Shown piece by piece: positions 9,670-41,558 of a DNA stretch of 51,016 nucleotides. Every line of letters starts with the position of its first letter. Within the stretch, counting starts at the first letter, position 1. Below the pieces are notes generated by a model that was not told the origin of the DNA, made no database searches, and saw nothing but the letters and a program-made list of their open reading frames with translations. Made by a program: the position numbers and the translations under genes. Where the stretch lies: positions 1 to 51,016 of IMG/VR virus record IMGVR_UViG_3300036781_000120, one strand, 5' to 3'. The DNA comes from a virus.

Positions 9670-9843
9670 ATGACAAGAGCATTAAAATACCCGGTTAAGA
9701 TAGACACGAAAGTAACTTTGGAAACTGAAAAAGAGTTACGGCAATTGGCCGAAGACGACGACCGTAAGTTCGCGGATATGATCCGGGTTGCGCTTACGCG
9801 CGGTATTCGTGAAATTAAACTTGAAAAATCATTAAAACCATGA
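9670..9843 (+). CDS. Small ribbon-helix-helix-like protein
   Basis: 57 aa, too short for usual gene callers. It begins MTRALKYPVKIDTKVTLETE and continues with LRQLAEDDDRKFADMIRVAL. One beta strand followed by two helices matches the CopG/Arc ribbon-helix-helix layout, a small DNA-binding dimer. It is the first gene of a plus-strand cassette of four genes coupled by ATGA overlaps, set against the direction of the tail operon. It may regulate its own cassette (inference). Confidence 0.7.
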   Translation: MTRALKYPVKIDTKVTLETEKELRQLAEDDDRKFADMIRVALTRGIREIKLEKSLKP

Positions 9844-24911: not shown

Positions 24912-25691
24912 TTATTCAAAAACAATGGGTAATTCTGATAAATTTATACTTACAGTCCGGGTATTATCTTCACTGTATTTACCGGCAATTTTCAACAGTT
25001 GTATTGCTGCATCCTTAGCGTCGTAAAGCTCTACCTCGATACCGTCTTTAGTTTCTTTGTACTTTTTAATTTTGCCGTTTTCGTGATCCGCGCAAATCTT
25101 ATTCAGGTCTAAAACTTGTTTTTTGACCAGGTAAGTATCGCCTAAAACGATACGCTTTGCTAGTGGTCCCTTTTTACGGATCTCCGTTTTCAAAGCTACA
25201 ATGTTTAAAGCAATTTCTTTTTGTCGCTTTTTAGACTGGCTAACATCTAACTTTGTTTCCGCGTACATACATTCGTATTCCTGTTCCGCTGTTAAATCGA
25301 TTTCCAGGTCTTGCAACAAATGTTTTAAAGGGCGCTCGATCCAATCCTGCTGCGGTAATACGCGTTCCGTCATGTACTGCTTTAAATCAGTATCGGCCAT
25401 GCTGCGTAAAATTCGAAGGTTATCATCTGGAACGCCGATTTCCTGTTCTAAGACGTATTCGATATAAGCCTTAACAGCGGGCCGGTTATACGTCTTAACG
25501 CCGTAATTGCTTGCTGTGCTTTCAGGTTTACCGAGATCCCGGGAAGCCTGGGTTTTGTTAAGCCGCTTTAAATAAAAGTTTGCCCAGCGTAAATGCTGCG
25601 GGTCCTCAATCGCGGCCGCTAACTGGTCAACATCTAAAATCGGTTTATCGTCTTCGCTTTGCACGGGGTAAATATAAAAAATATTTGACAA
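24912..25691 (-). CDS. Terminase small subunit
   Basis: 259 aa from a TTG at 25691; a GTG at 25664 (VQSEDDKPILDVDQL) is an alternative start and would avoid the terminator-like T tract. HTH-like N-terminal half with RLNKTQASRDLGKPESTASN and TYNRPAVKAYIEYVLEQEIG, then helices and a basic/acid C-terminus ending SINLSELPIVFE. The layout fits Terminase_2-type DNA-recognition subunits. First gene of the late operon. Confidence 0.82.
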   Translation of the reverse strand: MSNIFYIYPVQSEDDKPILDVDQLAAAIEDPQHLRWANFYLKRLNKTQASRDLGKPESTASNYGVKTYNRPAVKAYIEYVLEQEIGVPDDNLRILRSMADTDLKQYMTERVLPQQDWIERPLKHLLQDLEIDLTAEQEYECMYAETKLDVSQSKKRQKEIALNIVALKTEIRKKGPLAKRIVLGDTYLVKKQVLDLNKICADHENGKIKKYKETKDGIEVELYDAKDAAIQLLKIAGKYSEDNTRTVSINLSELPIVFE

Positions 25692-25697
25692 TAAAAA

Positions 25698-25727
25698 ACC
25701 GTCCCGCTTATCAAGCTGCCAGACGGT
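25698..25727 (-). terminator. Terminator-like hairpin just before the small terminase
   Basis: Minus strand ACCGTC ... GACGGT with inner GCTT/AAGC, followed by TTTTTTATT. It would stop early minus-strand transcripts before the late operon. Confidence 0.7.
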
Positions 25728-25742
25728 ATCATTTAGCCGGGT

Positions 25743-25769
25743 TACGTCCGTTAACCCTACGTCCGTTAA
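25743..25769. repeat. 12-bp direct repeat TACGTCCGTTAA
   Basis: Two identical copies at 25743-25754 and 25758-25769 (15-bp period), just upstream of the small terminase. Could be an operator or a packaging recognition site. Confidence 0.6.
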
Positions 25770-25857
25770 AAGCTAAACTATTTTCTGCATAATACTTATT
25801 ATGTTAAGTGATATTTAAAGCTATTGCAACAACGTTACAACAACTTCTCCCCCTACC

Positions 25858-26052
25858 CTATGGCCTCGCTGATAAATCAAAACTTACGGAATATGCGTAC
25901 CTGTTGTTTTCTCCAAGCTTCATAAACGCTTCTTTAATCTCGTTTTTCCTACTATTTAGTTCTACAGGTAAACAATCTATTGTTAGCGGTCTAACATCGC
26001 CGTGATCGTTTTTATACCATTTAATCGTAAAAGTCCCTTCAAATGTTTTCAT
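25858..26052 (-). CDS. Hypothetical small early protein
   Basis: 64 aa (MKTFEGTFTIKWYKNDHGD). The start is preceded by AAAAACTTTGCGATAATG, a leader shared by several early minus-strand genes. No family recognised. Confidence 0.65.
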   Translation of the reverse strand: MKTFEGTFTIKWYKNDHGDVRPLTIDCLPVELNSRKNEIKEAFMKLGENNRYAYSVSFDLSARP

Positions 26053-26179
26053 TATCGCAAAGTTTTTAATTCACCGAAACACCATGCCCCGGCACCAACA
26101 AAGCCCGGCCCCTTGTTAGGCAGCCAGGCTATTACCTGCGATTTGCAGACTTCGCGGGAACTGCGGCCCGCAGGATCTT

Positions 26180-26281
26180 TTAATGCTTACAATATATCGT
26201 CATGGCTACAACTATAAACCCGATTAAAAGCACAAAAGCTATAAACAGACACCAGAATGCGTACGCTATTTTTTCTTTCAT
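26180..26281 (-). CDS. Tiny membrane peptide
   Basis: 33 aa: MKEKIAYAFWCLFIAFVLLI and then a short hydrophobic and basic end. Single membrane helix. The ATG overlaps the upstream stop (ATGA). Function unknown. Confidence 0.6.
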   Translation of the reverse strand: MKEKIAYAFWCLFIAFVLLIGFIVVAMTIYCKH

Positions 26282-26529
26282 AAATCAATATTAAACAATT
26301 CCTGCCAATTAAAACTAACAACTTTACCGTAATTAAGTTTAACCGCGTAAACTTCCCAATAGTCGGTCCGCTGCGCTATTACCGTACCTGTACGGCCTTC
26401 AAACGAATCGTTGATGCTTTGGCCGTAACGCTTAAACCAATCGCCGTGCGGACCGCATGAAATAATGCAAACAGCATCCCCCACTTCCGGGGGATTGCTG
26501 TTATCGTAGTTTGTGATTATTGTTCGCAT
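26278..26529 (-). CDS. Hypothetical early protein
   Basis: 83 aa, beta-rich (EVGDAVCIISCGPHGDWFKR, GRTGTVIAQRTDYW), resembling a small SH3-like barrel. Not a named family. Overlaps its upstream gene by 13 bp and the downstream peptide by 4 bp. Confidence 0.7.
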   Translation of the reverse strand: MRTIITNYDNSNPPEVGDAVCIISCGPHGDWFKRYGQSINDSFEGRTGTVIAQRTDYWEVYAVKLNYGKVVSFNWQELFNIDL

Positions 26530-26786
26530 GCTGCGTAAAATTCAGCGTCGTTTTTAGCGTCCCGAGCTTTCGCGGCTCTTACTATCTCAACCCATTTGCG
26601 AAACTCAGCACTGTACAATTCCAGGTTATCGATGTGACCCATACCGGTAAAACCTTTGTTAATTTCTGACTGGAAAAATGTGATTTTGTCGGAGCAAGCT
26701 TTTTTAGCCGCTTCCAGGTAGTGAGTGTGTAAGTTAACCAGTTCGTCTGAGGTAAAGTCTGAAGTTAAAATCTGTGAAGTTTTCAT
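26517..26786 (-). CDS. Hypothetical helical early protein
   Basis: 89 aa, helical (DELVNLHTHYLEAAKKACSD). Begins MKTSQ with the same codons as the gene at 30234. Leader ends ACTTTGCGATTATG. Driven by the promoter at 26831-26861. Confidence 0.72.
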   Translation of the reverse strand: MKTSQILTSDFTSDELVNLHTHYLEAAKKACSDKITFFQSEINKGFTGMGHIDNLELYSAEFRKWVEIVRAAKARDAKNDAEFYAACEQ

Positions 26787-26830
26787 AATCGCAAAGTTTT
26801 AAAGTAAATAACTAAATTGTTATTACAATA

Positions 26831-26861
26831 CAAATATAACTATAAAAAGTTAATATGCAAA
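26831..26861 (-). promoter_or_regulatory. Early promoter with dyad spacer
   Basis: Minus strand TTTG (26861-26858), 19-bp spacer, TATATTTG (26838-26831). The spacer and -7 region hold TAACT-TTTTAT-AGTTA, an inverted repeat shared with the promoters at 27173, 29310 and 29954. The upstream 23 bp also match those of 29310. Confidence 0.85.
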
Positions 26862-26872
26862 TTAAATCGTAA

Positions 26873-27139
26873 TTATTTCACATTCATAAATTGCGCTATG
26901 TCAGCCAATAGCGGTAAAGTAGTGTACGCGCCGTCAGACGTACGCTTTGAGCACACTCTGAATTCGCCGTTTACGCAAATAATAGATCCCAAAGCAGGAC
27001 TATTTTTATCCGCGCCGATAGTAAACCGGTAAAATTTTTCAGACTGATCTGAATAGTTTGTATCCTGGTAAATAACAACGCCGAAAGTATTTGATACCTG
27101 ATTAAGTAATTCTGAGTTGTTGAAAATTGAAGTGCTCAT
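26873..27139 (-). CDS. Hypothetical early protein
   Basis: 88 aa (SNTFGVVIYQDTNYSDQSEK, GSIICVNGEFRVCSKRTSD), probably alpha/beta. Leader AAAACTTCGCAACATG. The gene lies between two early promoters (26831 and 27173). No family recognised. Confidence 0.7.
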   Translation of the reverse strand: MSTSIFNNSELLNQVSNTFGVVIYQDTNYSDQSEKFYRFTIGADKNSPALGSIICVNGEFRVCSKRTSDGAYTTLPLLADIAQFMNVK

Positions 27140-27172
27140 GTTGCGAAGTTTTGTTTAGCTGAATTGCTGAAG

Positions 27173-27202
27173 CAAATATAACTATAAAAAGTTAGTATCA
27201 AA
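27173..27202 (-). promoter_or_regulatory. Early promoter with dyad spacer
   Basis: Minus strand TTTG (27202-27199), 18-bp spacer, TATATTTG (27180-27173), with TAACT-TTTTAT-AGTTA in the spacer. The gene at 26873-27139 is its first target. Confidence 0.8.
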
Positions 27203-27720
27203 ATCTTTTTTCACTTTTTTTTCCTGACTTTTCGTCTTAAAAGTTCAAGCGGTCAACTGTAACGCTCGTTATTACTTTAAATTATGAAACCCATTACCTG
27301 AAGTTATGCTAAACGGTGTAAAACAGCCCGACAAACCCCGTTATCACCCATTTTATAAACTTCTCATTTACAATACTTTAACGCTTAAAAAGCTAACAAC
27401 GGAATAACTAAAAATTGCTTGAAGTGCTTTGTTGTTCTACTATAAACTACTAATAATCAATAACTTAAATACTTTATAGAATAAGAGAAACACTAATAAA
27501 TTAAAAGAGTATAGGGAGTAATATTAATGTTATTAGTACTATAGTTATACATAGTAGCGGTAATATTTATTTTATTTTTACGCCATAGACCTGGGATCAC
27601 TGTTTTAGTTAATTCGACGCCAAAAAGGGTTTAATCGCTTGACTATCAACGGACACACAGACACAGCGAAATCGAATTTTTGTTATGCTCTCCGCATGGA
27701 AAATTTATTATTTTTTCGAT
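27203..27720. other. AT-rich gene-free stretch, candidate replication origin
   Basis: No convincing gene in about 540 bp. The base composition is clearly more AT-rich than elsewhere, especially 27400-27570. It contains TAGTACTA (near 27535) and two GTAATATT copies. It lies between divergent early transcripts, a typical place for an origin or regulatory region. Nothing in it matches an origin motif I can name. Confidence 0.4.
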
Positions 27721-27752
27721 GTTGTTTAAAACATTCTAATTTTGTACCTTTG
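27721..27752 (+). promoter_or_regulatory. Promoter for the AbrB-like gene
   Basis: GTTG (27721-27724; TTTG with one change), 20-bp spacer, TACCTTTG (27745-27752). The ATG is at 27757, so transcription would begin at or next to the start codon (leaderless). Confidence 0.6.
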
Positions 27753-27756
27753 CTAA

Positions 27757-27939
27757 ATGAAAAAATCCCAAAAACTTAAAATTCTGAAATCTACGATTAA
27801 GACGAAAAGAGGAAAGTTAGTTTATAACACGTACCGTTTTAACATACCCGAAGAGATCGCCCTGGAGTTTGAAGACAAATTTTTCAGCGTTAAGCGCGTA
27901 GGTAACAGTATTATATTTTCAGTAACAAATAACGACTAA
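27757..27939 (+). CDS. AbrB/SpoVT-like small protein
   Basis: 60 aa. KTKRGKLVYNTYRFNIPEEI and FFSVKRVGNSIIFSV give the swapped-hairpin AbrB-type DNA-binding fold (a strand, IPxE, then a closing strand). A regulator is plausible. It is the first gene of a short plus-strand unit with a leaderless-type promoter. Confidence 0.65.
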   Translation: MKKSQKLKILKSTIKTKRGKLVYNTYRFNIPEEIALEFEDKFFSVKRVGNSIIFSVTNND

Positions 27940-27943
27940 AACA

Positions 27944-28291
27944 ATGCAAAAACGAAGAGCTTTAAGAATTTCCGACCGAAAACCAGTTAAGCCGGAAAAG
28001 GCACCGAAACAGCCAAAACCCGTTAAACTTAAAGGCGCGGCCGCCAGACCGGTGCAGGATGATCGATTAGTATTACCGAAAGGTGAAAGTATTCTGGTCC
28101 CTGACTTCAGGCCTTCGCCGGATATGAAAGATCCTGTATTATTGAAAAGCCATAAGCGTAAACCACTCACTTTATTAGCGGTCCCGGTTTTTAATGAGCT
28201 GCCAAAGTATCAGGTTATATACGACGGGATTATCGTAGCTACCAGGCATTCGATTAATGGCGCGCTGGAAGTGTACCATAGCTACGAATAA
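27944..28291 (+). CDS. Hypothetical basic, proline-rich protein
   Basis: 115 aa. Lys/Pro-rich N-terminal half (KPVKPEKAPKQPKPVKLKG), probably disordered, then a short folded C-terminus (PKYQVIYDGIIVATRHSING). No family recognised. Confidence 0.7.
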   Translation: MQKRRALRISDRKPVKPEKAPKQPKPVKLKGAAARPVQDDRLVLPKGESILVPDFRPSPDMKDPVLLKSHKRKPLTLLAVPVFNELPKYQVIYDGIIVATRHSINGALEVYHSYE

Positions 28292-28293
28292 GA

Positions 28294-28311
28294 AAAGTGC
28301 CTGAGCGCTTT
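28294..28311. terminator. Two-way terminator hairpin
   Basis: AAAGTGC-CTGA-GCGCTTT, 7-bp stem with one G-U pair and tetraloop, flanked by A and T runs between convergent genes. Confidence 0.6.
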
Positions 28312-28320
28312 AAAATACGT

Positions 28321-28542
28321 TCACCCTTTCGGGTAAAGCTCTTTACGGACCAGGTACCGGTAAAGCCGTAACTTCGCTTTGTACCGAGTATCTATATAGA
28401 TTTCGCCGTCATCGATCGCGGCTTTCTTTTCGGCAACGTCCTGATTATTCGTATCGAATTGATGCCATTTACCGGCGCTATCCTTCCAAAGGGCAAAGAA
28501 TTGTTTAGGCGCTGCGGCCTGATATTGCTTTAATGTTTTCAT
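28321..28542 (-). CDS. Hypothetical early protein
   Basis: 73 aa with GKWHQFDTNNQDVAEKKAAI, small alpha/beta. ATG overlaps the upstream stop (TAATG). Leader AAAACCGTAGCGTAATG resembles the shared early leader. Confidence 0.68.
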   Translation of the reverse strand: MKTLKQYQAAAPKQFFALWKDSAGKWHQFDTNNQDVAEKKAAIDDGEIYIDTRYKAKLRLYRYLVRKELYPKG

Positions 28543-28772
28543 TACGCTACGGTTTTAAATTGATAATCCTTATAAAAACATTTGTCGCCTTTAAATACGC
28601 AAAGCATTGCTTTACCCCGGCGTATCTCATATTTCCAGCCTAACAAAGCTGCATCCGATAAAGTTACCACGTAGGTAACATAAGTCATATTTGATTTGTT
28701 GCCGTTATAATCTAAAGGCCAGATCCGTACTCTGATCAAGGGCTGAGGTTTTAAAAGGTGTGCTACGTTCAT
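28542..28772 (-). CDS. Hypothetical early protein
   Basis: 76 aa from the ATG at 28772, which overlaps the stop of the tiny gene upstream (ATGA). The longer reading from 28802 would overlap that gene more. It carries MTYVTYVVTLSDAALLGWKY and FKGDKCFYKDYQ. No family. Confidence 0.65.
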   Translation of the reverse strand: MNVAHLLKPQPLIRVRIWPLDYNGNKSNMTYVTYVVTLSDAALLGWKYEIRRGKAMLCVFKGDKCFYKDYQFKTVA

Positions 28773-28867
28773 GCTTGTATAACTAAGAAGAGTAAATACC
28801 ATAAGATAATTGTTCCTAATAGGATGCCCACTATAAGCAGACGCGGCCCGTTGTTGCTGTAGTTCAT
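28769..28867 (-). CDS. Tiny membrane peptide
   Basis: 32 aa with the hydrophobic stretch LLIVGILLGTIILWYLLFLV. Overlaps the downstream start by 4 bp. Accepted from coupling and membrane character; function unknown. Confidence 0.55.
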   Translation of the reverse strand: MNYSNNGPRLLIVGILLGTIILWYLLFLVIQA

Positions 28868-28872
28868 AATTT

Positions 28873-29061
28873 TTAATCTCTTGAATGTTTTTTCATTGAA
28901 AATAATTCAGCCTCTAAAGTTACCCAAGTATTCCAATCGTTTGAGATTCGGATACATTCTTTGTTGCTTTTCTCGATAGCGTCTTCTACGCTTTTAGCTT
29001 TCGGGTAGTAAAAGTGTTTATCCCCGTTTTGGTTGATGCTGGTTGCGATGTAAGTTTTCAT
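28873..29061 (-). CDS. Hypothetical early protein
   Basis: 62 aa (HFYYPKAKSVEDAIEKSNKE), similar in pattern to small DUF-like early proteins. Its leader (ATTAATCACTTTAAAACTTCG) is identical to that of the upstream gene at 29083. Confidence 0.68.
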   Translation of the reverse strand: MKTYIATSINQNGDKHFYYPKAKSVEDAIEKSNKECIRISNDWNTWVTLEAELFSMKKHSRD

Positions 29062-29082
29062 TGTTACGAAGTTTTAAAGTGA

Positions 29083-29271
29083 TTAATTAACAATGGTGAA
29101 ATCGGTACGGGAATACCAGCTATAAGAATCCGCTTCCGAATGTTTCAGGCGGTATATAGTTACGCCTCCGTAGTTCTGGATGCTATCCAATATACAAACA
29201 GCGCCTTTAAAGAATTTACAGGTTAGTGTTTTCTTTATTTTTACAGTTGTTCCGATTTCTAAAGTTTTCAT
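29083..29271 (-). CDS. Hypothetical early protein
   Basis: 62 aa, beta-rich (GTTVKIKKTLTCKFFKGAVC), perhaps SH3-like. First gene after the promoter at 29310-29340. Shares its leader with 28873. Confidence 0.7.
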   Translation of the reverse strand: MKTLEIGTTVKIKKTLTCKFFKGAVCILDSIQNYGGVTIYRLKHSEADSYSWYSRTDFTIVN

Positions 29272-29309
29272 TGTTACGAAGTTTTAAAGTGATTAATTAT
29301 TCAACACCA

Positions 29310-29340
29310 CAAAGATAACTATATAAAGTTAATATCCAAA
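29310..29340 (-). promoter_or_regulatory. Early promoter with dyad spacer
   Basis: Minus strand TTTG (29340-29337), 19-bp spacer, TATCTTTG (29317-29310). The dyad TAACT-TTATAT-AGTTA keeps both arms while the middle differs. Confidence 0.85.
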
Positions 29341-29404
29341 TTAAATCGTAATTATTTCACTCGACATAGAATTATACGTATATTGGCTTTATATTTAAAA
29401 TACT

Positions 29405-29917
29405 ATGCCCTGCCATTACACACCACACATTTGCCGCTTATGCGGAGAAACCGATAAAACTAAATTTTACAAAACCTATTTAACCCGGTGTAAAAAATGC
29501 CAGGCCAAAGAGCAGAAAGTGAGCAACGATAAAAAGAAAGCGGCAAACCCTAAAGTTAAAAAGATCAAGGTAAAAACGTTCGACCAGAAAGCTTACTACT
29601 TAGCTAACATATTAAAGGTAAGAATTTTTCAGGCCCGCAAAAGAGCGGCTTTTAGAAATATGGAATTTGACTTAACCTTAGATAAAGTAGAACAGTTATT
29701 AATAGATCAAAAAGGCAGATGTTTTTATTCTAATAGGGTTTTTGATAATTCCAGCCCGGTTAATTCAGTATCCATAGATAGACGTGATTCGGACAAAGGA
29801 TACGTTATGAGCAATATAAATTTAGTGTGTTCAAGCGTTAACTATATGAAGAGCGATTTGTCAGAATGTGAGTTCTTAAACCTGATAGCAGAAATAACCA
29901 GGCATTCGGGATATTAA
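29405..29917 (+). CDS. HNH endonuclease-like protein
   Basis: 170 aa. N-terminal Cys pairs (CRLCGE, CKKC) form a likely zinc finger; a Lys-rich linker follows; the C-terminal part has CFYSNRVF, VSIDRRDSDKGYVMSNINLV and VNYMKSDLSECEF, typical of phage HNH nucleases of the homing type. It stands alone between two divergent early promoters, as selfish endonucleases often do. Confidence 0.8.
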   Translation: MPCHYTPHICRLCGETDKTKFYKTYLTRCKKCQAKEQKVSNDKKKAANPKVKKIKVKTFDQKAYYLANILKVRIFQARKRAAFRNMEFDLTLDKVEQLLIDQKGRCFYSNRVFDNSSPVNSVSIDRRDSDKGYVMSNINLVCSSVNYMKSDLSECEFLNLIAEITRHSGY

Positions 29918-29953
29918 CTTTTTAAGGTTAAAATAAAAAAAAGTGAAAATAAA

Positions 29954-29984
29954 TTTGCAAATTAACTTTTTATAGTTATCTTTG
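29954..29984 (+). promoter_or_regulatory. Early promoter with dyad spacer (plus strand)
   Basis: TTTG (29954-29957), 19-bp spacer, TATCTTTG (29977-29984), with TAACT-TTTTAT-AGTTA. Drives the plus-strand early genes from 30008. Confidence 0.88.
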
Positions 29985-30007
29985 TTTCAACAAATCAGAT
30001 AAACAAA

Positions 30008-30229
30008 ATGAAAGTATTAACCGGTCACTTAACCAACACAGATAAAAAAGCCGTAACCGCTATAATGGAAGCCGGTTTAAACGCTGGAAAAGTTGGTAAA
30101 GCTACTTACTACATATCTAATACGGGTACTTTGTTTACTGTTAAAAAAGTAATTAAGGACCGCGGCCTAATACCTTGTGCCGGCAGCTCTTTAAGGTTTA
30201 GTACTTACACTTCAACATTTATTAAATAA
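30008..30229 (+). CDS. Hypothetical early protein
   Basis: 73 aa (LTGHLTNTDKKAVTAIMEAG), small alpha/beta. First gene after the 29954 promoter, 24 nt beyond its -7 box. No family recognised. Confidence 0.7.
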   Translation: MKVLTGHLTNTDKKAVTAIMEAGLNAGKVGKATYYISNTGTLFTVKKVIKDRGLIPCAGSSLRFSTYTSTFIK

Positions 30230-30233
30230 TCAA

Positions 30234-30422
30234 ATGAAAACTTCGCAGAGCCCTTTAATGTTAACCAAAAGAGAATTAAACGATTACGGTATCATACTGA
30301 TAATAGCGTTTAAAGCCGATAGCGTTACTATAGGCAACTTTCAAAATCGTAAAGACGAAAAGTCTTGTTCACTTGAAAGCTTTAATGACCCTTACAAATA
30401 TAAACTATACAAAAATTCTTAA
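30234..30422 (+). CDS. Hypothetical early protein
   Basis: 62 aa (LNDYGIILIIAFKADSVTIG). The first codons (MKTSQ) match the start of the gene at 26517-26786. Function unknown. Confidence 0.65.
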   Translation: MKTSQSPLMLTKRELNDYGIILIIAFKADSVTIGNFQNRKDEKSCSLESFNDPYKYKLYKNS

Positions 30423-30424
30423 TT

Positions 30425-30568
30425 ATGAAAACACTAACCAACCTACAAAACGGAAACCCTGTTACTATGCGTAACGCGTTCCTGGTAATCGCTGCAATAA
30501 TAGTTATCGCAGCTGTTACACTTAACCACTTTGGACTAATTAACTTATCAGCTTTGAATAAATATTAA
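30425..30568 (+). CDS. Small membrane protein
   Basis: 47 aa, short basic N-terminus, then the membrane helix AFLVIAAIIVIAAVTL. Lies 2 bp from its upstream neighbour and 1 bp from the next. Function unknown. Confidence 0.6.
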   Translation: MKTLTNLQNGNPVTMRNAFLVIAAIIVIAAVTLNHFGLINLSALNKY

Positions 30569-30569
30569 G

Positions 30570-30710
30570 ATGAAAACAGTAATCATAATGGCTTCGAGCA
30601 TCAAAGAGGCAAAACAAATAGCGACTGCCAATTACGGAGAAACAGCGGTTTATATTAAACCTTTCCGTTACGCTTCTAAGGGTAATAATTTTTACGAATT
30701 CAATTACTAA
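30570..30710 (+). CDS. Hypothetical small protein
   Basis: 46 aa (SSIKEAKQIATANYGETAVY). Tight spacing in the plus-strand early row is the main support. Confidence 0.6.
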   Translation: MKTVIIMASSIKEAKQIATANYGETAVYIKPFRYASKGNNFYEFNY

Positions 30711-30713
30711 GCT

Positions 30714-30935
30714 ATGAAAGTAACGCGCTATTTAAAAAAGATGTTTGAGGGCGAAGGTTATGAGAATACCGAATTAACTCAAAACGAAATTCAACGTAGG
30801 TTAGACGCTGCGGGCATAGGCTGGCACATAGCGGACGGCATTTTATTCGCTGGAAACCCGTTAACCGAAAGTGATCACGAAATGCAGGAAACAACTAACT
30901 GGAAACTTTTTGACCTTTTAGCCTATATTGAGTAA
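30714..30935 (+). CDS. Hypothetical early protein
   Basis: 73 aa (NEIQRRLDAAGIGWHIADGI), helical. 3 bp after the previous gene. Followed by the structured element at 30949. Confidence 0.68.
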   Translation: MKVTRYLKKMFEGEGYENTELTQNEIQRRLDAAGIGWHIADGILFAGNPLTESDHEMQETTNWKLFDLLAYIE

Positions 30936-30948
30936 CCGGCTATACCCC

Positions 30949-30999
30949 TACCCAGCAAAACAACTCCAACGCTTAACCAGGCTTGGAGTTTTCCCGGTA
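30949..30999 (+). ncRNA. Structured leader/terminator RNA element, copy 1
   Basis: Outer pair TACC/GGTA (30949-30952 with 30996-30999) encloses the stem AACTCCAA/TTGGAGTT (30962-30969 with 30983-30990) and the loop CGCTTAACCAGGC, then TTTTCC and an AAACCAAC leader. A second copy with changed but still paired stems is at 47236-47285. Could be an intrinsic terminator or an RNA switch. Confidence 0.6.
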
Positions 31000-31014
31000 A
31001 AAACCAACATTCAA

Positions 31015-31221
31015 ATGAAAAAGCGTAAACAGAAATTATACATCGATATCGAAATAGTACGCAGCTATTTACACCTGCACGGAATAAAAACCCGCGAGAT
31101 CCACGGAAAGCTATACGCCTACGATGAATACTGGGACACGGTTAAAAAGGTCCACGGGGGAGAGTGGGTAAACGCAACCACCTGGACGCTCCAGGATGCT
31201 CGCGACTTCTTAGGATATTAG
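31015..31221 (+). CDS. Hypothetical protein
   Basis: 68 aa from the ATG at 31015 (MKKRKQKLYIDIEIVRSYLH), because the longer reading would run through the structured element. Strongly basic at the start. No family. Confidence 0.68.
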   Translation: MKKRKQKLYIDIEIVRSYLHLHGIKTREIHGKLYAYDEYWDTVKKVHGGEWVNATTWTLQDARDFLGY

Positions 31222-31280
31222 TGGAACTCTCCCACGATACAACAACTCGACTTTGAAACGAAAAAATTAATCAAAAGAAA

Positions 31281-31502
31281 ATGGCAATTCAACAAAAAAC
31301 CAAAGATCGTTACCCGCTTCTTAACGAGGGGTATCCCGCGCTCGAATGCGCTATGTGCGATAAAAAGTGTTACCCGGACGCGAAAACAGCAGACGGGTCT
31401 GTTATTTACAATAGACACTTTTGCAAAGTGAAATCAGGTATATACCGCGAAACAGTTGAACGCCGTTTTGAAATAACAGAAAACGGAGATTTCGTAATTT
31501 AA
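31281..31502 (+). CDS. Hypothetical protein with Cys cluster
   Basis: 73 aa; CAMCDKKCYPD and a later Cys near RHFCKV may bind zinc. Located just before the regulator gene. Function unknown. Confidence 0.68.
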   Translation: MAIQQKTKDRYPLLNEGYPALECAMCDKKCYPDAKTADGSVIYNRHFCKVKSGIYRETVERRFEITENGDFVI

Positions 31503-31510
31503 TAATAGCT

Positions 31511-31786
31511 ATGACAAAACAACAAATAGGTGCCGAGCTTAAACGGTTAAGAACCGAAGCCGGCTTATCTCAAAAGGAATTAGCGGAGCATGCAGGCGAA
31601 AGCTTCCAGCATATCAGTCATATCGAGGCAGGCAAGTATAACCTTACCCTTGACCGCTTGGAACGCGTAGGCGCGGCCCTGGGCGTTACTGTAGCCCTGC
31701 AGCCAGCGGAAAAAAGCATGCTTATTACTGAGCCCGACAAAAAAGCATGCTTATTGGACGACGATAGCGCCGGCTGGGAGATATAA
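31511..31786 (+). CDS. Helix-turn-helix (XRE family) regulator
   Basis: 91 aa. RLRTEAGLSQKELAEHAG, SFQHISHIEAG and LTLDRLERVGAALG form an HTH_3 domain at residues 10-62. The C-terminal tail has two AAGCATGCTT sites read in different frames (EKSMLI, KKACLL) and ends DDDSAGWEI, an acidic tip ending in W-E-I like two replication proteins. A third palindrome lies just after the stop, so it may be autoregulated by these sites (inference). Confidence 0.85.
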   Translation: MTKQQIGAELKRLRTEAGLSQKELAEHAGESFQHISHIEAGKYNLTLDRLERVGAALGVTVALQPAEKSMLITEPDKKACLLDDDSAGWEI

Positions 31787-33091
31787 AAAAGCATGCTTAT
31801 TAATTTTTAAACTTAAAACCAACAATAGAAATTATGAAAACAGACGATCAAGGTTTAAACCGTAGAAATATCCCGGTTGCCTTTATGGACTACATCGCGG
31901 GAACTTTTGGGTACGACACATTCGGCGATGTTCCTAAAAAGAAGTTAAGCGAAGTAACCGACACGATTAAAATGCGGTTTTCGCAAACTGAAGCAAAGAT
32001 CAGGAGGTTATACGGTAAGAGAACCGAAACGATCAAACGCCGCGCCGGCGAAACGGCTTTAGAGTTTGCGGTAAGAGTTGATAACCGCGACCCGTATCCC
32101 GAAGTGACAGAGACCCGTATTACCGGCACAATACCAGGCGACACAATAATCACCGGTTGTCCTTTCGACGAAGCTTTACCGTCGATCCCCGGTGATGCCG
32201 AAATCCTCAGCCTATCCAACTTAAAACCCGAAACGGTTAAACAGGTAGCCGCCGAATTACTGGAACAGGAAAAAGCCACGGACAATTTTAAAGATTTAAT
32301 ACACGAAATCGTAGCGCCGATAAAGGAAAAGCATGCTTTTTTACCCAAACAGGTTATCGACCCGTACGCTACTCCGATATTCGATTTAAAGAGTTTCGGT
32401 AAACCGTTTCAGAACTTAGACGAAGTCGTTAAAAAATGGCGCGAAACGAATAGTAAAATTGTCGATTTCTTTAAAGAAGTATTATCGGACCGGGTTATAA
32501 TCTCAGAAATACACGACGAGGTTGTATGCGAAAGCGTTACGGATTTTGCAGAACGTTTCGGTAACGCGATGCTAAAGAAAAAGCATGCTTTTTTATCTGT
32601 ACCAGAAACAGGCCCGGAAAAAATAATATCCGCACAAGCTACAAACGAGCTATTAATCGAAACGGGGCAACAATGGTCAACCGAAGAACTTAAACGCTGG
32701 TCCAGCGGTCCCGGCAATATCCAAAATTTGCGTAAGCCTTATTTTAACCCCGATTTAGCACGACCGTACCGCAATACTGTAGAAAGCGCTACTTCTAACG
32801 ACGGCATTAATTGGGCAGACAATTCAGAGCAGATAAAGGATTATCTTATGAACCACATGCCGAGAGTACCATGCGTAAAAAACCCAAACATAACCGACAC
32901 GCACCAGGTAAAAGCCGAATTCCGCGAACCTTTAAAAGTACTTAGCTATACCCCGGAAAACTGGCCAGCATCTGCCCCGCCTTACCATAGCGCTGAAGGC
33001 TGGGAATTTGAGAAAGCTATGTCCCGGAGAAACTTAAAAAGCATGCTTACTATAACCTGGTTGGAAAAGCAACAAACCGAAAAGCATGCTT
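31714..33091. repeat. Cluster of seven AAGCATGCTT palindromes
   Basis: Core copies at 31714, 31743, 31789, 32329, 32581, 33039 and 33082, each with A-rich left and T-rich right flanks. They fall in a regulator gene, an intergenic gap and a 431-aa gene, and are read as SML, ACL and HAFL/HAL, so the DNA and not the protein is preserved. Confidence 0.85.
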
Positions 33092-33129
33092 TAATAGCGC
33101 AGAGATTAAGGGAGATCCTGGCAGCATAA
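31834..33129 (+). CDS. Unknown 431-aa early protein
   Basis: Preceded by an AAACCAACAA leader. No family recognised. N-terminal third is charged (RFSQTEAKIRRLYGKRTETI); middle has a coiled section (DEVVKKWRETNSKIVDFFKE). Four palindromes add the short strings KEKHAFL, KKKHAFL, LKSMLT and EKHALI in different places. The C-terminus is basic and helical. A role in replication or genome organisation is possible given the repeats and position. Confidence 0.72.
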   Translation: MKTDDQGLNRRNIPVAFMDYIAGTFGYDTFGDVPKKKLSEVTDTIKMRFSQTEAKIRRLYGKRTETIKRRAGETALEFAVRVDNRDPYPEVTETRITGTIPGDTIITGCPFDEALPSIPGDAEILSLSNLKPETVKQVAAELLEQEKATDNFKDLIHEIVAPIKEKHAFLPKQVIDPYATPIFDLKSFGKPFQNLDEVVKKWRETNSKIVDFFKEVLSDRVIISEIHDEVVCESVTDFAERFGNAMLKKKHAFLSVPETGPEKIISAQATNELLIETGQQWSTEELKRWSSGPGNIQNLRKPYFNPDLARPYRNTVESATSNDGINWADNSEQIKDYLMNHMPRVPCVKNPNITDTHQVKAEFREPLKVLSYTPENWPASAPPYHSAEGWEFEKAMSRRNLKSMLTITWLEKQQTEKHALIAQRLREILAA

Positions 33130-33143
33130 TTATTTTTAAAACT

Positions 33144-33767
33144 ATGGCAAAGATAGCAGAGTTAAAATTTACGCTTTTTGAGCAAAAGCACAAAATACCC
33201 GTAAATGTCGGGGTAGACGGGGTATTTAAAACGAAGTTACCCAAAGAGGTAGCGGATCCTTTAGGCATACGCCAGGAGTTAAAAGCTGATAAATTATCGG
33301 ATTTAGAGCATGAATTTTTTGCAGCGTTAGATAAATTTAAAACCGCAAAGACTTTTCAGTATCTCTATTTAGCTATTAGGTACGGATCTTGCGGAGTTTA
33401 CAATCGCACAGAAGAAGGGTATTCTTTATTTCACGAAACGGGTTCTAAGTACAAAGTAGATAATTGGAATTCCGACGTAGATAGCATAGCCTTTGAATAC
33501 CGTGTCGTAATAATGGAAAGTGTTGCGGGGGTTGAAAAATGGTATAGTACGATGGAGTTAACACCTGGTAAATACGAAAAGCACACAAGTTTTTATAACA
33601 ACAGTGATAAATGGAAATTAATTCCTTACACTGAAGTTTGCCACCAAACACTGAAAAAAGCGGAAGAAAGCTTAAGGAAAATAAGCGAAATGCTTTTTAA
33701 ATTTATAGATCAAGACGAACAGCAAATAATTTTATCTTTATCGGGTAATACGCTTTTATTAAATTAA
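33144..33767 (+). CDS. Unknown 207-aa early protein
   Basis: Alpha/beta protein (KFTLFEQKHKIPVNVGVDGV, YGSCGVYNRTEEGY, LKKAEESLRKISEML). No family recognised. 14 bp after the 431-aa gene, and followed by a long hairpin. Confidence 0.72.
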   Translation: MAKIAELKFTLFEQKHKIPVNVGVDGVFKTKLPKEVADPLGIRQELKADKLSDLEHEFFAALDKFKTAKTFQYLYLAIRYGSCGVYNRTEEGYSLFHETGSKYKVDNWNSDVDSIAFEYRVVIMESVAGVEKWYSTMELTPGKYEKHTSFYNNSDKWKLIPYTEVCHQTLKKAEESLRKISEMLFKFIDQDEQQIILSLSGNTLLLN

Positions 33768-33802
33768 TTATTTTCCACAAACATTAATTTATCAACATTT
33801 AC

Positions 33803-33849
33803 AAGAGTTATAATTTATAACATTATGTTTGTTATCTATTATAACTCTT
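33803..33849 (+). terminator. Long imperfect hairpin with a -7 box in the loop
   Basis: AAGAGTTATAA (33803-33813) pairs with TTATAACTCTT (33839-33849), and ATAAC/GTTAT pair inside. TTTCTTAT follows. The loop holds TATGTTTG (33824-33831) but no TTTG 19 bp before. Either a terminator for the 207-aa gene or an operator over a promoter for 33857. Confidence 0.5.
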
Positions 33850-33856
33850 TTCTTAT

Positions 33857-34069
33857 ATGCCCGAATTCTTAACGAAGCCAATTACCCGGACCCAGCAAAT
33901 ACGCGACTTGGGTTTTTACGAAAAAGTTCCTTTCACTTTAGAAGAGTATAACTATATCCGGTCACTGGTTAGCGGCCTGATAGCTGCGGAATACCCGTTG
34001 CGGGTTTTTACAGTGAGTAAGAAAAATGGAATCACTGAAGTAACAAGATTAGAGGACGCGGCTATATGA
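33857..34069 (+). CDS. Hypothetical small protein before the primase/helicase
   Basis: 70 aa (FTLEEYNYIRSLVSGLIAAE). Stop overlaps the ATG of the next gene (ATGA). No family. Confidence 0.68.
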   Translation: MPEFLTKPITRTQQIRDLGFYEKVPFTLEEYNYIRSLVSGLIAAEYPLRVFTVSKKNGITEVTRLEDAAI

Positions 34070-36543
34070 TAGAACTATCCATTGCAACGGGACGTACGAT
34101 TAAGAGCCGGGAGACAAAGACCTGGAAAAACCAGACCATAACCTGGAATGCCCTTGTTAAAAAGTTATCCGATCCTATCCGGACACACGAGACATACGCA
34201 CAATATAAAGCTTTAGGCAATACCAAAGAAGGCAAGGAGCAGCAAGCGGACATAAAGGATAAAGGCGGTTTCGTAGGCGGTTATTTAAAAGACGGCCGGC
34301 GTAACCCGCATTCAGTTGAGCACCGCCAATTAATAACCCTTGATCTAGATTTCTCAAATTACGACTTTTGGGACGACTTTACTTGTTATTTTGGTAACGC
34401 GGCGGTTATCCACTCCACCCATAAACACGGGCCGAGCTCGCCGCGTTACCGGCTTATAATGCCTCTTAGTCGCCGGGTATCTAAAGAAGAGTACGAAGCG
34501 ATTTCGCGTAAGCTGGCTTCGTACCTGGATATAGAACTGTTCGACCCGACCACCTTCCAGCCTGAGCGCTTGATGTTCTGGCCAACGGTAGCCAAAGATG
34601 GGGACTGGGTATTTAAACAGCAAAAAGGCGACTGGCTGGACGCGGACGAGGTTTTAAGAAGCTATGAAGACTGGCGTGATATTAGCGCATGGCCGGTGCA
34701 TGCTGAAGAAACGGTTAAGATCAACAAAGGGTTAAAGTTGCAGGGTGATCCGACCACAAAGCCGGGGTTAATCGGTGCCTTTTGCCGTACGTACGATATT
34801 CACGAAGCAATTGAAACATTTTTATCCGACGTATATGAGAAAACAGATTTCGACGAGCGCTATACTTTTATTGAAGGTAGCGGCTCTAATGGCGCTATCG
34901 TTTATGGCGATGCCGCTGATTTCCTTTATAGTAATCACGGGAGTGATCCTACTAACGGGATACTGTGTAATTCTTTTGACTTGGTACGCCTTCACAAGTT
35001 TGGGCACGAAGATGCGGACGGCGATCAGGTTGAGATAACAAAGCGGAAATCGTATCGCTTGATGAACGATTTTGCTAAAACAATCAGCGAAGTAGTAAAA
35101 GAATACGGGGTGGCCCGCATTTCCGCAGCAAGCGATTTCGACGACGGCTTTGAGGTCGAAGCAGACTATAATAACGCGTGGCTGGGCAAACTGAAATTCG
35201 ACAAGTATAACAAGTACGACGCGACGACTACGAATTTCGAGCTGATAATAAAGCACGATCCCCGGTTAAGCAACCAGCCGTATTTTAACAAAGGAGAAAA
35301 ACCAGATAAAGTACCTTTGGGCAATCTGCGGTACGATAAGTTTAACTTACGCCCCGTAAGCACAAAGCCGTTACCGTGGAACAATTTTGACGGAGAAAGG
35401 CAATGGACCGATGAAGACGACGCGGGGTTACGGCATTACCTCGAAACGGAGTACGGGATCTATAACGCTACAAAGTGCAAAGACTCGCTAATGCTGGTAT
35501 TCCGGCAAAATGCTTTCCACCCCATAACAAACTATCTTGACAAACAGGAATGGGACGGCCTCGAACGCCTGGATACCCTGCTTATCGATTACCTGGGCGC
35601 GGACGATACGCGGTTTACCCGCTTAGCTACCCGGAAAGCATTTGTCGCGGCGGTTGCCCGTGTTTACGAACCAGGAATTAAGTTTGACTATGTGTTAACG
35701 CTTATGGGTAAAGAGGGCATAAAGAAAAGCATGCTTTTAGGCAAGATGTTCGGCAAATGGTTTAGTGATAGTTTTGTCGGGGTTGAAGGAAATAAAGCGT
35801 ACGAACAATTGCAAGGTGCCTGGGGCATAGAAATGGGTGAATTAAGCGGCATAAAGCGATCAGAGGCAGAGGCGGTAAAACACTTCATAACGAAACGCGA
35901 AGATCGCTTCCGAGTAGCCTACGGCGCCAGGATCGAAGGGTTTCCGCGTCAGTGTGTTTTTTTCGGCTCTACTAACGAGTATGCGTTCTTACGGGATAAC
36001 AACGGTAACCGGCGTTTCTGGCCTGTACAGGTAAACGCTTACGGGTTACTACATATTGACGATTTACCCATCGACCAGCTTTGGGCGGAAGCTAAACAGT
36101 ATTTCCAGTGGAAAGAGCCGCTTTACCTGGACGAAGATGTAGAGCAAGAGGCTAAAGAAGTACAGAACCAGCACACCGAGACAGACGACCGTACAGGAAT
36201 GATCGTTGAGTATTTGGATACATTGTTACCGATTAACTGGGAAACAATGAAGCTGCACGAACGGAAAGCGTTCCTGCACGACCCGGAAGCGCAATTTAAC
36301 ACCGGGGAATGGCCACGCCTTAAAGTATGCGTCGCTGAAATATGGTGCGAGCTACTGCAATCGCCTTTAAAGGAAATGACCACGCATAACACGAAATACA
36401 TTCATGCGATAATGGAAAAATTACCCGGCTGGGAGAAAACCCCCAGTAACTTATCGTTTGGGATTTACGGTAAACAGCGGGCATATAAGAAAGTAGACCT
36501 GATAAAAAGAGAACAACGAAGTAAAAATAAAACCAACAAATAA
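34066..36543 (+). CDS. VirE/VapE-type primase-helicase
   Basis: 825 aa. The N-terminal ~250 residues contain GGYLKDGRRNPHSVEHRQLI, LDLDFSNYDFWDDF, HSTHKHGPSSPRYRLIMPLS and QPERLMFWPT, a primase-polymerase-like module (as in BT4734-type domains). The C-terminal half has YVLTLMGKEGIKKSMLLGKM (Walker A), FVGVEGNKAYEQLQGAWGIE, MGELSGIKRSEAEAVKHFIT and RRFWPVQV, typical of virulence-associated protein E helicases. One AAGCATGCTT palindrome covers the Walker A codons KKSML. This starts DNA replication. Confidence 0.88.
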   Translation: MIELSIATGRTIKSRETKTWKNQTITWNALVKKLSDPIRTHETYAQYKALGNTKEGKEQQADIKDKGGFVGGYLKDGRRNPHSVEHRQLITLDLDFSNYDFWDDFTCYFGNAAVIHSTHKHGPSSPRYRLIMPLSRRVSKEEYEAISRKLASYLDIELFDPTTFQPERLMFWPTVAKDGDWVFKQQKGDWLDADEVLRSYEDWRDISAWPVHAEETVKINKGLKLQGDPTTKPGLIGAFCRTYDIHEAIETFLSDVYEKTDFDERYTFIEGSGSNGAIVYGDAADFLYSNHGSDPTNGILCNSFDLVRLHKFGHEDADGDQVEITKRKSYRLMNDFAKTISEVVKEYGVARISAASDFDDGFEVEADYNNAWLGKLKFDKYNKYDATTTNFELIIKHDPRLSNQPYFNKGEKPDKVPLGNLRYDKFNLRPVSTKPLPWNNFDGERQWTDEDDAGLRHYLETEYGIYNATKCKDSLMLVFRQNAFHPITNYLDKQEWDGLERLDTLLIDYLGADDTRFTRLATRKAFVAAVARVYEPGIKFDYVLTLMGKEGIKKSMLLGKMFGKWFSDSFVGVEGNKAYEQLQGAWGIEMGELSGIKRSEAEAVKHFITKREDRFRVAYGARIEGFPRQCVFFGSTNEYAFLRDNNGNRRFWPVQVNAYGLLHIDDLPIDQLWAEAKQYFQWKEPLYLDEDVEQEAKEVQNQHTETDDRTGMIVEYLDTLLPINWETMKLHERKAFLHDPEAQFNTGEWPRLKVCVAEIWCELLQSPLKEMTTHNTKYIHAIMEKLPGWEKTPSNLSFGIYGKQRAYKKVDLIKREQRSKNKTNK
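35727..35736. repeat. Eighth AAGCATGCTT palindrome
   Basis: Copy inside the Walker A codons of the primase/helicase, 2.6 kb away from the main cluster. Since the KS of Walker A is needed anyway, this copy could be chance. Confidence 0.6.
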
Positions 36544-36547
36544 GATT

Positions 36548-36847
36548 ATGAAATACGAAAATTTACCCACACCGATAGAAGCTATAAAAGCTTTTAACCA
36601 GGTGGTTGTACCGAAACCTATAGAGGCCTTTTTAGCTGAGTTCGGCAACGAATCGGAATTTTCCGAAAATACTAATTTACGCGGCGCTATTGTCGATGTT
36701 ATCAACTACGCTGAAAATCAGCAAGCCGATAAAATTCTATCACGTTTATCGGCAATCTTTACCGACTATAAAAACGCCGGCTTCGAAAACAGCGCCCAGG
36801 TAACTAAGTTTATAATGACTGAAATTGAACAAATTGTAAAGGTATGA
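36548..36847 (+). CDS. Hypothetical replication-region protein
   Basis: 99 aa, helical (IEAIKAFNQVVVPKPIEAFL). AAACCAACAAA leader; ends in an ATGA overlap with the next gene. No family. Confidence 0.7.
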   Translation: MKYENLPTPIEAIKAFNQVVVPKPIEAFLAEFGNESEFSENTNLRGAIVDVINYAENQQADKILSRLSAIFTDYKNAGFENSAQVTKFIMTEIEQIVKV

Positions 36848-37062
36848 AAATTAAAAAAATACATTTTAACTGGCATCAAGTAAACTGGGATAATTCTGCG
36901 GGTGAAGATTTTCACGTTTATGAAATCGGTACCAAAGGTGTAACCGAAATAGAAGAGCATCCCGCAATGCGCGACGGTGACAAATGGTTCTATTACGTTA
37001 GGTTTGAAAACGGTTCTGAAATAAAGGTTTTTAATCCTAATCAAGTATTTTCAGAACCGTGA
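36844..37062 (+). CDS. Hypothetical small protein
   Basis: 72 aa, beta-rich, with FHVYEIGTKGVTEIEEH and DGDKWFYYVRFENGSEIKVF. Coupled on both sides (ATGA, GTGA). No family. Confidence 0.7.
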   Translation: MKIKKIHFNWHQVNWDNSAGEDFHVYEIGTKGVTEIEEHPAMRDGDKWFYYVRFENGSEIKVFNPNQVFSEP

Positions 37063-37373
37063 AACCCGCCGAAGTTTCCGAAGCCTACATCGAAAAGCTG
37101 TTAAAGGAAAAGCTTAAAGCCGTATTCGGTACGCTGTATGTCCACTGGCTGTATTTGAAGTTTAAAGCGGTATGCTTTAACGGTGTACCCGACAGGCTTA
37201 TAATGTTACCCGGTAGACAGCTTTACTTCGTAGAGCTGAAGCGGCCTAAAGGCGGCGTATTATCACCGGTACAGATAACCGTTCACAAACTGTTTAAGTT
37301 TTTAGGCTTTCCGGTTTACGTGATCTGGACCGTTGAACAATTAGATAATTTTATTTTAGAAATTAGTATATGA
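37059..37373 (+). CDS. VRR-NUC nuclease
   Basis: 104 aa from GTG (overlaps the upstream stop). GVPDRLIMLPGRQLYFVELK followed by RPKGGVLSPVQ is the VRR-NUC PD-(D/E)XK signature: the D of GVPD and the ExK pair of VELK. Structure-specific or Holliday-junction cleavage in replication/recombination is expected. Coupled to the methyltransferase by an ATGA overlap. Confidence 0.87.
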   Translation: MKPAEVSEAYIEKLLKEKLKAVFGTLYVHWLYLKFKAVCFNGVPDRLIMLPGRQLYFVELKRPKGGVLSPVQITVHKLFKFLGFPVYVIWTVEQLDNFILEISI

Positions 37374-40497: not shown

Positions 40498-41223
40498 TTA
40501 AATATCTAATTGTGATTCGTGAATAAACAGTTTTTCTACCGCGTCTTTTAAAGTGCGTTTATTAGCAATTCCTTTTTTAAGCACCATACTAAATACCGAA
40601 ACGAAATCTTCCGGAGCAGAGTATTCGGAGACAAAAACCGTATGCCCTCGACAAATTAACAATCGAACATAGTTCCAGAACTTTTCGTGATCGAATTTAA
40701 CCCGATATCCGGTCACTCCTTTATACGGCGGATCTAAATAAATTAAACTGTTTGGGGGTAAATCTACTTTATCATAAGAGAGAGAGGTAAATTTAACGTT
40801 TTTAAGTTTTCCTATTTGTGCTAAAATATTATTCGATGCCCCCAGTTGATAGTTACGCTGTATTCCGGTATCTGGAGTATGTAAACCAGCGTATCCACCA
40901 AAAGGTTTGCCGGAGTAGCTGCAACAAAAGCAAGCGTACCCGACTAAATGTAAATCGTATAGAATATCTTTATATTGCCTGATTTCATAATACTTTTCCT
41001 TTGATATTAAAGAAGGCGGTTTCCAACCCTCCTGCAAGGCTTTCCATAGAGCTATAAGCGGTTCGTTCACATCGTTTGCTAAACGGTGTGGGTGATTTAC
41101 TTTATCAATAAGATTACAACCACCGCAAAATAATTCCACATACGTTTGATCGGGTCTAAGGTCTTTAAGAATTATAGGTAAAATATGTTTAGCCAGTCTG
41201 GCCTTAGACCCCATGTACTTCAT
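40498..41223 (-). CDS. DNA adenine methyltransferase (D12/Dam class)
   Basis: 241 aa. KYMGSKARLAKHI at the start, ELFCGGCNLIDKV (SAM binding), LIYLDPPYKGVTGY with DPPY (catalytic) and YAGLHTPDTG. Orphan Dam-type enzymes protect phage DNA or tune gene expression; the target may be GATC but cannot be read from sequence. It stands at the end of the minus-strand replication unit with no terminator before the helicase stop. Confidence 0.9.
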   Translation of the reverse strand: MKYMGSKARLAKHILPIILKDLRPDQTYVELFCGGCNLIDKVNHPHRLANDVNEPLIALWKALQEGWKPPSLISKEKYYEIRQYKDILYDLHLVGYACFCCSYSGKPFGGYAGLHTPDTGIQRNYQLGASNNILAQIGKLKNVKFTSLSYDKVDLPPNSLIYLDPPYKGVTGYRVKFDHEKFWNYVRLLICRGHTVFVSEYSAPEDFVSVFSMVLKKGIANKRTLKDAVEKLFIHESQLDI

Positions 41224-41312
41224 TAATTGTATTTTTAAAGTGTGAAAAACTGTATAATTTTATGTAAAGCAAGTTGTACGCTATTTATACACCTGATTTT
41301 TAAGAACGTACG

Positions 41313-41320
41313 TATATTTG
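41313..41320 (+). promoter_or_regulatory. Candidate -7 box with AAACCAA leader
   Basis: TATATTTG then AAACCAA and ATTATG at 41346. An ACGTACGT palindrome (41306-41313) overlaps the box edge, possibly an operator. Confidence 0.5.
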
Positions 41321-41345
41321 AGTAAGCAAACCAAATGTACGCATT

Positions 41346-41558
41346 ATGAAAAAATTTCAAAGGTTAATCGATAATTGCCAGGCAGAAATCGAAATCGAAA
41401 AATTAATTATCCAGGGTATCGAATCGGATATCGAAACAAAGACAAAGCAGCTTCAGGAAAAAATGATCCCGCACAAAGAGCGCATTGTTACCCTCGAAGA
41501 AGCGATCAACGACCTGCAGCAAATCCAAACCGATGACGACGAAAAAGAACCCATGTAA
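41346..41558 (+). CDS. Coiled-coil small protein
   Basis: 70 aa, heptad-like (ESDIETKTKQLQEKMIPHKE), acidic tail DDDEKEPM. Single gene with its own -7 box and terminator. No family. Confidence 0.7.
   Translation: MKKFQRLIDNCQAEIEIEKLIIQGIESDIETKTKQLQEKMIPHKERIVTLEEAINDLQQIQTDDDEKEPM

Follow-up and report, generated by a model that had tools for sequence, protein, structure and literature searches.

Four promoters within an accessory region of the 51-kb virus record IMGVR_UViG_3300036781_000120 carry the same inverted repeat, TAACT-N6-AGTTA, between their -33 and -7 boxes. The whole record, of 51,016 nucleotides, is referred to as the window. With moderate confidence, and on the basis of sequence comparison, we consider this dyad to be an operator for a phage-encoded dimeric regulator that would block RNA polymerase at four early accessory operons. 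An operator within the spacer of a phage promoter is of an already known kind; what is fresh here is its multi-copy use in a phage of Bacteroidota and its persistence over the replacement of genes. Early transcriptional control in Bacteroidota phages is little described, and a search of the open literature, which was not exhaustive, revealed no mapped operator in such a phage. If the assignment is true, it provides a concrete operator together with three candidates for its regulator, and it identifies a small set of jointly controlled accessory genes. Furthermore, it would show how a phage retains control of its early region during gene turnover, and would offer a regulated promoter for Bacteroidota genetics.

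Four promoters share an inverted repeat at one register

The window contains exactly four perfect copies of TAACT-N6-AGTTA, each embedded in the promoter frame TTTK-N5-TAACT-N6-AGTTA-T[A/C]TTTG. The promoters are listed below together with their expected targets (open reading frames, ORFs) and their orthologues in the closest relative, G003 (IMGVR 3300005439_000002, 51.5 kb), whose coordinates carry the prefix L099.

Promoter A, 26831..26861, minus strand: TTTG-CATAT-TAACTTTTTATAGTTA-TATTTG, dyad 26837-26852; targets ORFs 26517-26786 and 26278-26529; orthologue L099:2470-2500, identical dyad.
Promoter B, 27173..27203, minus strand: TTTT-GATAC-TAACTTTTTATAGTTA-TATTTG, dyad 27179-27194; target ORF 26873-27139; orthologue L099:2717-2747.
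Promoter C, 29310..29340, minus strand: TTTG-GATAT-TAACTTTATATAGTTA-TCTTTG, dyad 29316-29331; targets ORFs 29083-29271, 28873-29061, 28542-28802 and 28321-28542; orthologue L099:4481-4511, same centre variant, -33 tetramer TTAG.
Promoter D, 29954..29984, plus strand: TTTG-CAAAT-TAACTTTTTATAGTTA-TCTTTG, dyad 29963-29978; target plus-strand run 30008-31786 with the XRE gene last; orthologue L099:4556-4586, -33 tetramer CTTG, identical dyad.

The consensus of Bacteroidota sigma(ABfr) promoters consists of a -7 box TAHHTTTG and a -33 box TTTG (PMC6847099), separated by about 19 bp. All four promoters conform to it, containing TATATTTG or TATCTTTG with TTTG or TTTT 19 bp upstream; the distance between the TTTK tetramer and the TAnnTTTG box is 19 bp throughout. 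In promoter B (27203) the -33 tetramer is TTTT, and a TTTG one base further inward would correspond to an 18-bp spacer. If the -7 box is numbered from T-12 to G-5 (PMC6847099), the dyad extends from -26 to -11 in each promoter and is centred at -18.5, and the final TA of its right arm doubles as the TA of the -7 box. The half-sites of the inverted repeat are 11 bp apart, centre to centre, and the interval from -26 to -11 overlaps the polymerase contacts.

An earlier note on this DNA had described the shared dyad and had pointed out that the promoter at 29310 deviates in the middle and retains both arms. Both statements are confirmed by the exact copies at a common register: the centre is TTTTAT in three of the four copies and TTATAT at 29316, which corresponds to one differing base in 16 with unchanged arms. 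The match upstream of two copies that the note mentioned was found as well, as the block CAAATTAAATCGTAATTATTTCAC common to the promoters at 26831 and 29310.

Apart from these copies, a dyad with one mismatch (TAACTTTTTAAGGTTA) is present at 29915-29930, at the end of an HNH gene and 48 bp upstream of the promoter D dyad. It is absent in G003.

The dyad is conserved between related phages

G003 and the fragment L019 (IMGVR 3300047509_000023) were the only related records found. The PolA protein of G003 is 87% identical to that of the window, and core proteins are mostly about 75-92% identical. All four promoters recur in G003 with unchanged order and orientation (three on the minus strand, one on the plus strand). 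Across the four orthologous pairs, 64 of 64 dyad bases are identical, and even the variant centre TTATAT of promoter C is kept. The -33 tetramers of G003 have decayed at C (TTAG) and D (CTTG) with their dyads intact; TTTG or TTTT is kept in six of the eight promoters of the two genomes. The arms are thus conserved while other parts of the promoters change. The earlier note had named, as an outcome that would speak against an operator, relatives in which the dyad is lost and the -33 and -7 boxes are kept. The reverse was found: the dyad stays, and the -33 box drifts in G003.

An ungapped comparison of the flanks gave matches of 32-44% for the 50 nt further upstream and of 37-70% downstream; these values underestimate the similarity of the flanks, and other conserved non-coding blocks lie nearby. 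The upstream blocks are of two types, which differ between orthologues (ACGATTTAATTTG in promoter A of G003, GAAAATAAATTTG in promoter A of L019). Because the dyads are identical while upstream blocks and flanks differ between orthologues, the 16-mer acts as a unit of its own. Its only two G/C pairs, C-23 and G-14, are symmetric about the centre and invariant in 12 of 12 copies, if the three copies of the contig L020 (see below) are included.

Recurrence exceeds chance expectation, symmetry does not

In window-sized dinucleotide shuffles, the mean number of exact dyads was 0.09 with a maximum of 2, and none of 200 shuffles reached four. Shuffles of the region 26501-30200 contained 0.009 exact dyads on average, and 0 of 1000 reached four. 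When up to two arm mismatches were allowed, the window contained 40 dyads and the shuffles 44.6, and mismatched dyads were dropped as a signal because their number is not above that of the shuffles. The four copies probably descend from one duplicated sequence, and the existence of the dyad then counts as a single observation. Beyond chance are the exact multi-copy recurrence at a fixed register and the conservation between phages.

A search for the arms identified the 9-kb contig L020 (IMGVR 3300026544_000107), in which three promoters in tandem carry TAACTAAATATAGTTA in the register seen in the window. The centre of these dyads is AAATAT; the arms and the half TATAGTTATATTTG match those of the clade. 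The promoters sit before small ORFs and behind GC-rich, T-tailed sequences resembling terminators. A fourth similar promoter has two arm mismatches and is the only near-dyad with a -7 box in these phages. No homologue of a window protein was found in L020, and the phage is apparently unrelated. L020 is a possible independent case; since the arms themselves were what was searched for, it lends support rather than proof.

A made-up control dyad with the arms TCAAT/ATTGA, set in an identical promoter frame, occurred in 36 viral contigs, none of them with several copies, whereas the real pattern occurred in 19, two of which were multi-copy. Rarity among viral contigs was consequently discarded as evidence; only multi-copy occurrence discriminates. 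Among the matches listed from a wider scan for the arms plus the -7 box, most were isolated and without a -33 box, some came from a single sequence family that recurs, and none formed another multi-copy set of promoters. A search of 84,980 genomes of bacteria and archaea for the arms plus the box gave 10 single matches and no multi-copy regulon, and a looser pattern was present in exactly one copy in each of six of these 10 genomes. A host regulon was rejected as unlikely on these grounds.

Proposed mechanism and candidate binding proteins

From the sequence, register, multiplicity and conservation of the dyad we infer the following course of events. Early after infection, the sigma(ABfr) polymerase of the host would start at these promoters and transcribe small accessory genes in four short runs. 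The dyad TAACT-N6-AGTTA would then be occupied by a DNA-binding dimer encoded by the phage. The half-sites of the dyad, 11 bp or about one turn apart, would be contacted on one face, and its A/T-only centre may be read indirectly. The bound dimer would cover positions -26 to -11 and with them the TA of the -7 box, such that the polymerase could neither bind nor open the promoter, and the four units would be silenced together. Three phage proteins are candidates for this function:

31511..31786, plus strand: XRE (HTH_3) protein of 91 aa in the run behind promoter D; Pfam HTH_3, E=1e-14.
9670..9843, plus strand: Arc-like ribbon-helix-helix (RHH) protein of 57 aa; weak PHROG match to an Arc-like repressor, E=0.008.
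27757..27939, plus strand: basic protein of 60 aa, possibly AbrB-like; transcribed away from promoter B, own promoter without the dyad.

The XRE and the RHH protein are the best candidates. The XRE protein resembles C.BclI, HigA and SinR; its orthologue in G003 is 84% identical over the aligned columns and the recognition region GESFQHISHIEAG is invariant. Possibly it regulates its own synthesis via promoter D, which would constitute a Cro-like feedback loop. The RHH orthologue is 47% identical with an invariant beta-strand KIDTKVT. The promoter of the RHH gene (window 9610-9670, L152:7030-7092) is conserved between the phages (AAAATAAATTTGTTATTGTCGGTWAARGTGGTA) and has a spacer unlike the dyad. 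The RHH gene lies far off, and proximity therefore singles out no one regulator. For the 60-aa protein, a low-confidence model (predicted local distance difference test score of 60) has a beta-beta-alpha-beta-beta topology that is compatible with the swapped hairpin of AbrB/SpoVT. Searches of Pfam, PHROG, PDB sequences and Foldseek gave no match, the model being poor for a fold search, and the label AbrB-like used in the earlier note was not corroborated. Within the probability assigned to an operator, the largest share, short of one half, falls to the XRE protein, a somewhat smaller one to the RHH protein and a minor one to the 60-aa protein; the rest is left to an unknown or a host protein.

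The three regulators are conserved, in contrast to most of the accessory genes around them. The 60-aa protein was found only in the three related, dyad-carrying phages, and the finds of the XRE protein were limited to the window and G003. No close homologues were detected in named phages and 395 Bacteroidota genomes, which makes the co-occurrence of regulator and operator uninformative beyond the clade. Because the promoters of the RHH gene and the 60-aa gene lack the dyad, it is not a general promoter need. The proposal of the earlier note, an operator for a phage regulator, is thus strengthened with respect to the site, which is identical in four orthologous pairs although two -33 boxes and the downstream genes have changed, and which is missing from other promoters driving conserved genes. 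With respect to the regulator, the binding partner is a candidate.

Around its -33 region, the promoter of the 60-aa gene carries an inverted repeat of its own that resembles TGTTT...AAACA, with varying spacing and unlike the TAACT dyad (window 27713-27757; L099 3354-3389; L019 ~12900-12938). Autoregulation of the 60-aa gene by means of this repeat is possible.

Alternative explanations

Several observations weigh against an operator. Symmetry by itself is not significant and fails as an argument of the earlier note: with a sequence this rich in AT, a perfect 5-bp dyad arises in 34% of the shuffles of one 27-nt spacer. Only two related phages are known, and within the clade the whole 16-mer is conserved, not the arms alone, which an asymmetric recognition site explains as well. 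No second operator that would allow cooperative binding was detected, and no such dyad lies near the host XRE homologues examined, which are distant ones. Finally, the Elizabethkingia phage TCUEAP1 (MN732896, L141), which has a homologous helicase-primase, contains a different repeated, conserved promoter spacer that is not a dyad. The upstream block GAAAATAAATTTG is common to TCUEAP1 as well, which points to selection for strength too.

The main rival reading is that the promoters have an extended strong early-promoter signature as in T4, in which the spacer is adapted to melting by, and sigma contacts of, the host polymerase, a separate binding protein is not involved and the dyad would be incidental. 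We regard this as unlikely for the whole of the evidence; possibly it is a part of the answer. The AT-rich spacer with its centre at -18.5 matches the AT-rich motifs of F. johnsoniae, which are centred at -18 and -28 (PMC6847099), and T4 early promoters have extra conserved regions beyond their boxes (PMC2988021). The boxes and upstream block in the window fit such a pattern, and the decayed -33 boxes of G003 do not. In TCUEAP1, a conserved spacer that starts with TTTGGTAG recurs in about eight promoters on the plus strand (L141 ~25198-44793), with AAAATAAA upstream. Several of them precede small genes, and they combine their non-dyad spacer with the same AAAATAAATTTG upstream block. The earlier note had argued that Bacteroidota promoters normally have no conserved spacer. 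This generalization failed, and because of the TCUEAP1 spacer and the F. johnsoniae motifs it does not dispose of a strong-promoter signature, for which the chance frequency of a dyad of about 34% also speaks. However, two G003 promoters have a decayed -33 box next to an intact spacer, AT-richness does not account for the invariant C-23 and G-14, and other promoters of the same phages drive conserved genes without the 16-mer.

The combination of a fixed spacer and a decaying -33 box also resembles T4 middle promoters, in which a MotA box takes the place of the -35 element (PMC2988021). Accordingly designed, the 16-mer would be the asymmetric site of a MotA/AsiA-like phage factor that retargets polymerase and replaces the -33 contact, and the promoters would be middle ones. 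This is improbable, given that six of the eight promoters keep TTTG or TTTT at -33, that the arms are symmetric, and that the proteins scanned, which comprise part of the window ORFs, included no recognisable product of a MotA/AsiA-like or sigma gene. Still less credible is a recently duplicated promoter cassette with a functionless spacer, the identity of which would result from recent copying or gene conversion. Upstream blocks of two shared types and reused leaders indicate that cassettes were copied; yet identity is limited to the 16-mer plus the -7 box, the upstream blocks, the leaders and the genes have either diverged or been swapped, and orthologous pairs retain even the variant base of promoter C. 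Host regulators can act on phage promoters, and the binder of the dyad is a candidate only, but the reading that the dyad serves a host regulator or silencer, either exploited by the phage or acting to its detriment, is the most doubtful of these explanations in view of the missing multi-copy regulon and the single looser copies in six cellular genomes. An RNA hairpin was rejected, as transcription from each promoter is expected to start downstream of its dyad and does not include it.

Comparison with known systems

Arc of phage P22 is a small RHH repressor whose operator at the ant promoter (Pant) lies between the boxes, with half-sites about one turn apart. The window phage likewise has a spacer element and encodes a conserved Arc-like RHH protein; in contrast to P22, four promoters rather than one are concerned, these are of the Bacteroidota type, binding is putative and the RHH assignment is weak (E=0.008). 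The Cro and CI proteins of the 434/P22 type are phage XRE proteins that recognise inverted half-sites with an A/T centre overlapping early promoters. A phage XRE protein, inverted half-sites with an A/T centre and an overlap with presumably early promoters are found here too, whereas an array of two or three operators per promoter, a recognised lysogeny module and an integrase are not.

The XRE-fold controller C.Csp231I binds CTAAG-N5-CTTAG with an A-rich centre (PMC4321490); the geometry of the dyad fits this solved case, which is similar in design. This class shares with our case 5-bp inverted arms, an A-rich centre and, if the XRE protein is the binder, an XRE-fold dimer; C.BclI and other controllers are also among the proteins that the XRE protein of the phage resembles. 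Different are the N6 instead of N5 spacing, the arms, the missing paired operator and the lack of an identified adjacent restriction gene. Classical C-boxes are paired GACT/AGTC boxes with the consensus GACTTATAGTC (PMC4321490, PMC3758141), and the dyad does not belong to them, having the arms AACT-N6-AGTT and occurring once per promoter. As in T4, several phage promoters share sequence beyond the polymerase boxes (PMC2988021); unlike in T4, the shared sequence is a symmetric 16-mer in four promoters of one 3-kb accessory region and outlasts the -33 box.

Genes behind the promoters are exchanged

For the first genes behind the four promoters (26517-26786, 26873-27139, 29083-29271 and 30008-30229), tblastn detected no homologue in G003 (E<1e-3). 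The same holds for most ORFs between 25.8 and 31.5 kb, although small, fast-evolving proteins could escape this search. The window and G003 share a conserved leader at promoters C and D as far as the start codon, beyond which their coding sequences differ. Between these two promoters, the window contains one further gene without a homologue in G003:

29405..29917, plus strand: HNH/endonuclease VII-like gene; PHROG endonuclease, E=9e-24.

In G003, C and D are divergent and their dyads are 62 bp apart (4487-4502 and 4565-4580). Tentatively, the promoter-operator may be a stable docking unit of a gene-exchange region, where arriving accessory genes would fall under one phage regulator at once. 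What would persist through gene replacement is the operator with the -7 box, joined at C and D by the leader as far as the start codon, and the three tandem copies of L020 with the same arms might represent a second such system.

The accessory region has further conserved features. In the gene at window 28542-28802 (L099:4176-4439), which appears chimeric, the last 28 aa (EIRRGKAMLCVFKGDKCFYKDYQFKTVA) are 100% identical to G003 and the N-terminal parts are dissimilar. A non-coding block of about 120-150 bp (window 27355-27520, L099 ~3000-3120; CTTTAACGCTTAAAAAG...AATCAATAACTTAAATACTTTATAGAATAAGAGAAACACTAA) is highly conserved and partly kept in L019; perhaps it is a replication origin or a regulatory region. 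A second element is common to all three phages, the leader AAAACTTYGYR, whose end precedes the ATG of small accessory genes by a few bases:

Window: 26066, 26800, 27152, 29075 and 29285 (minus strand).
L099: 1590, 2447, 4455 (minus strand) and 5256 (plus strand).
L019: 12258.

This leader could be a signal for translation control or for cassette exchange. Two neighbouring genes have a leader that is identical over nearly 30 nt, and several other genes carry AAACCAACAA upstream in place of AAAACTTYGYR.

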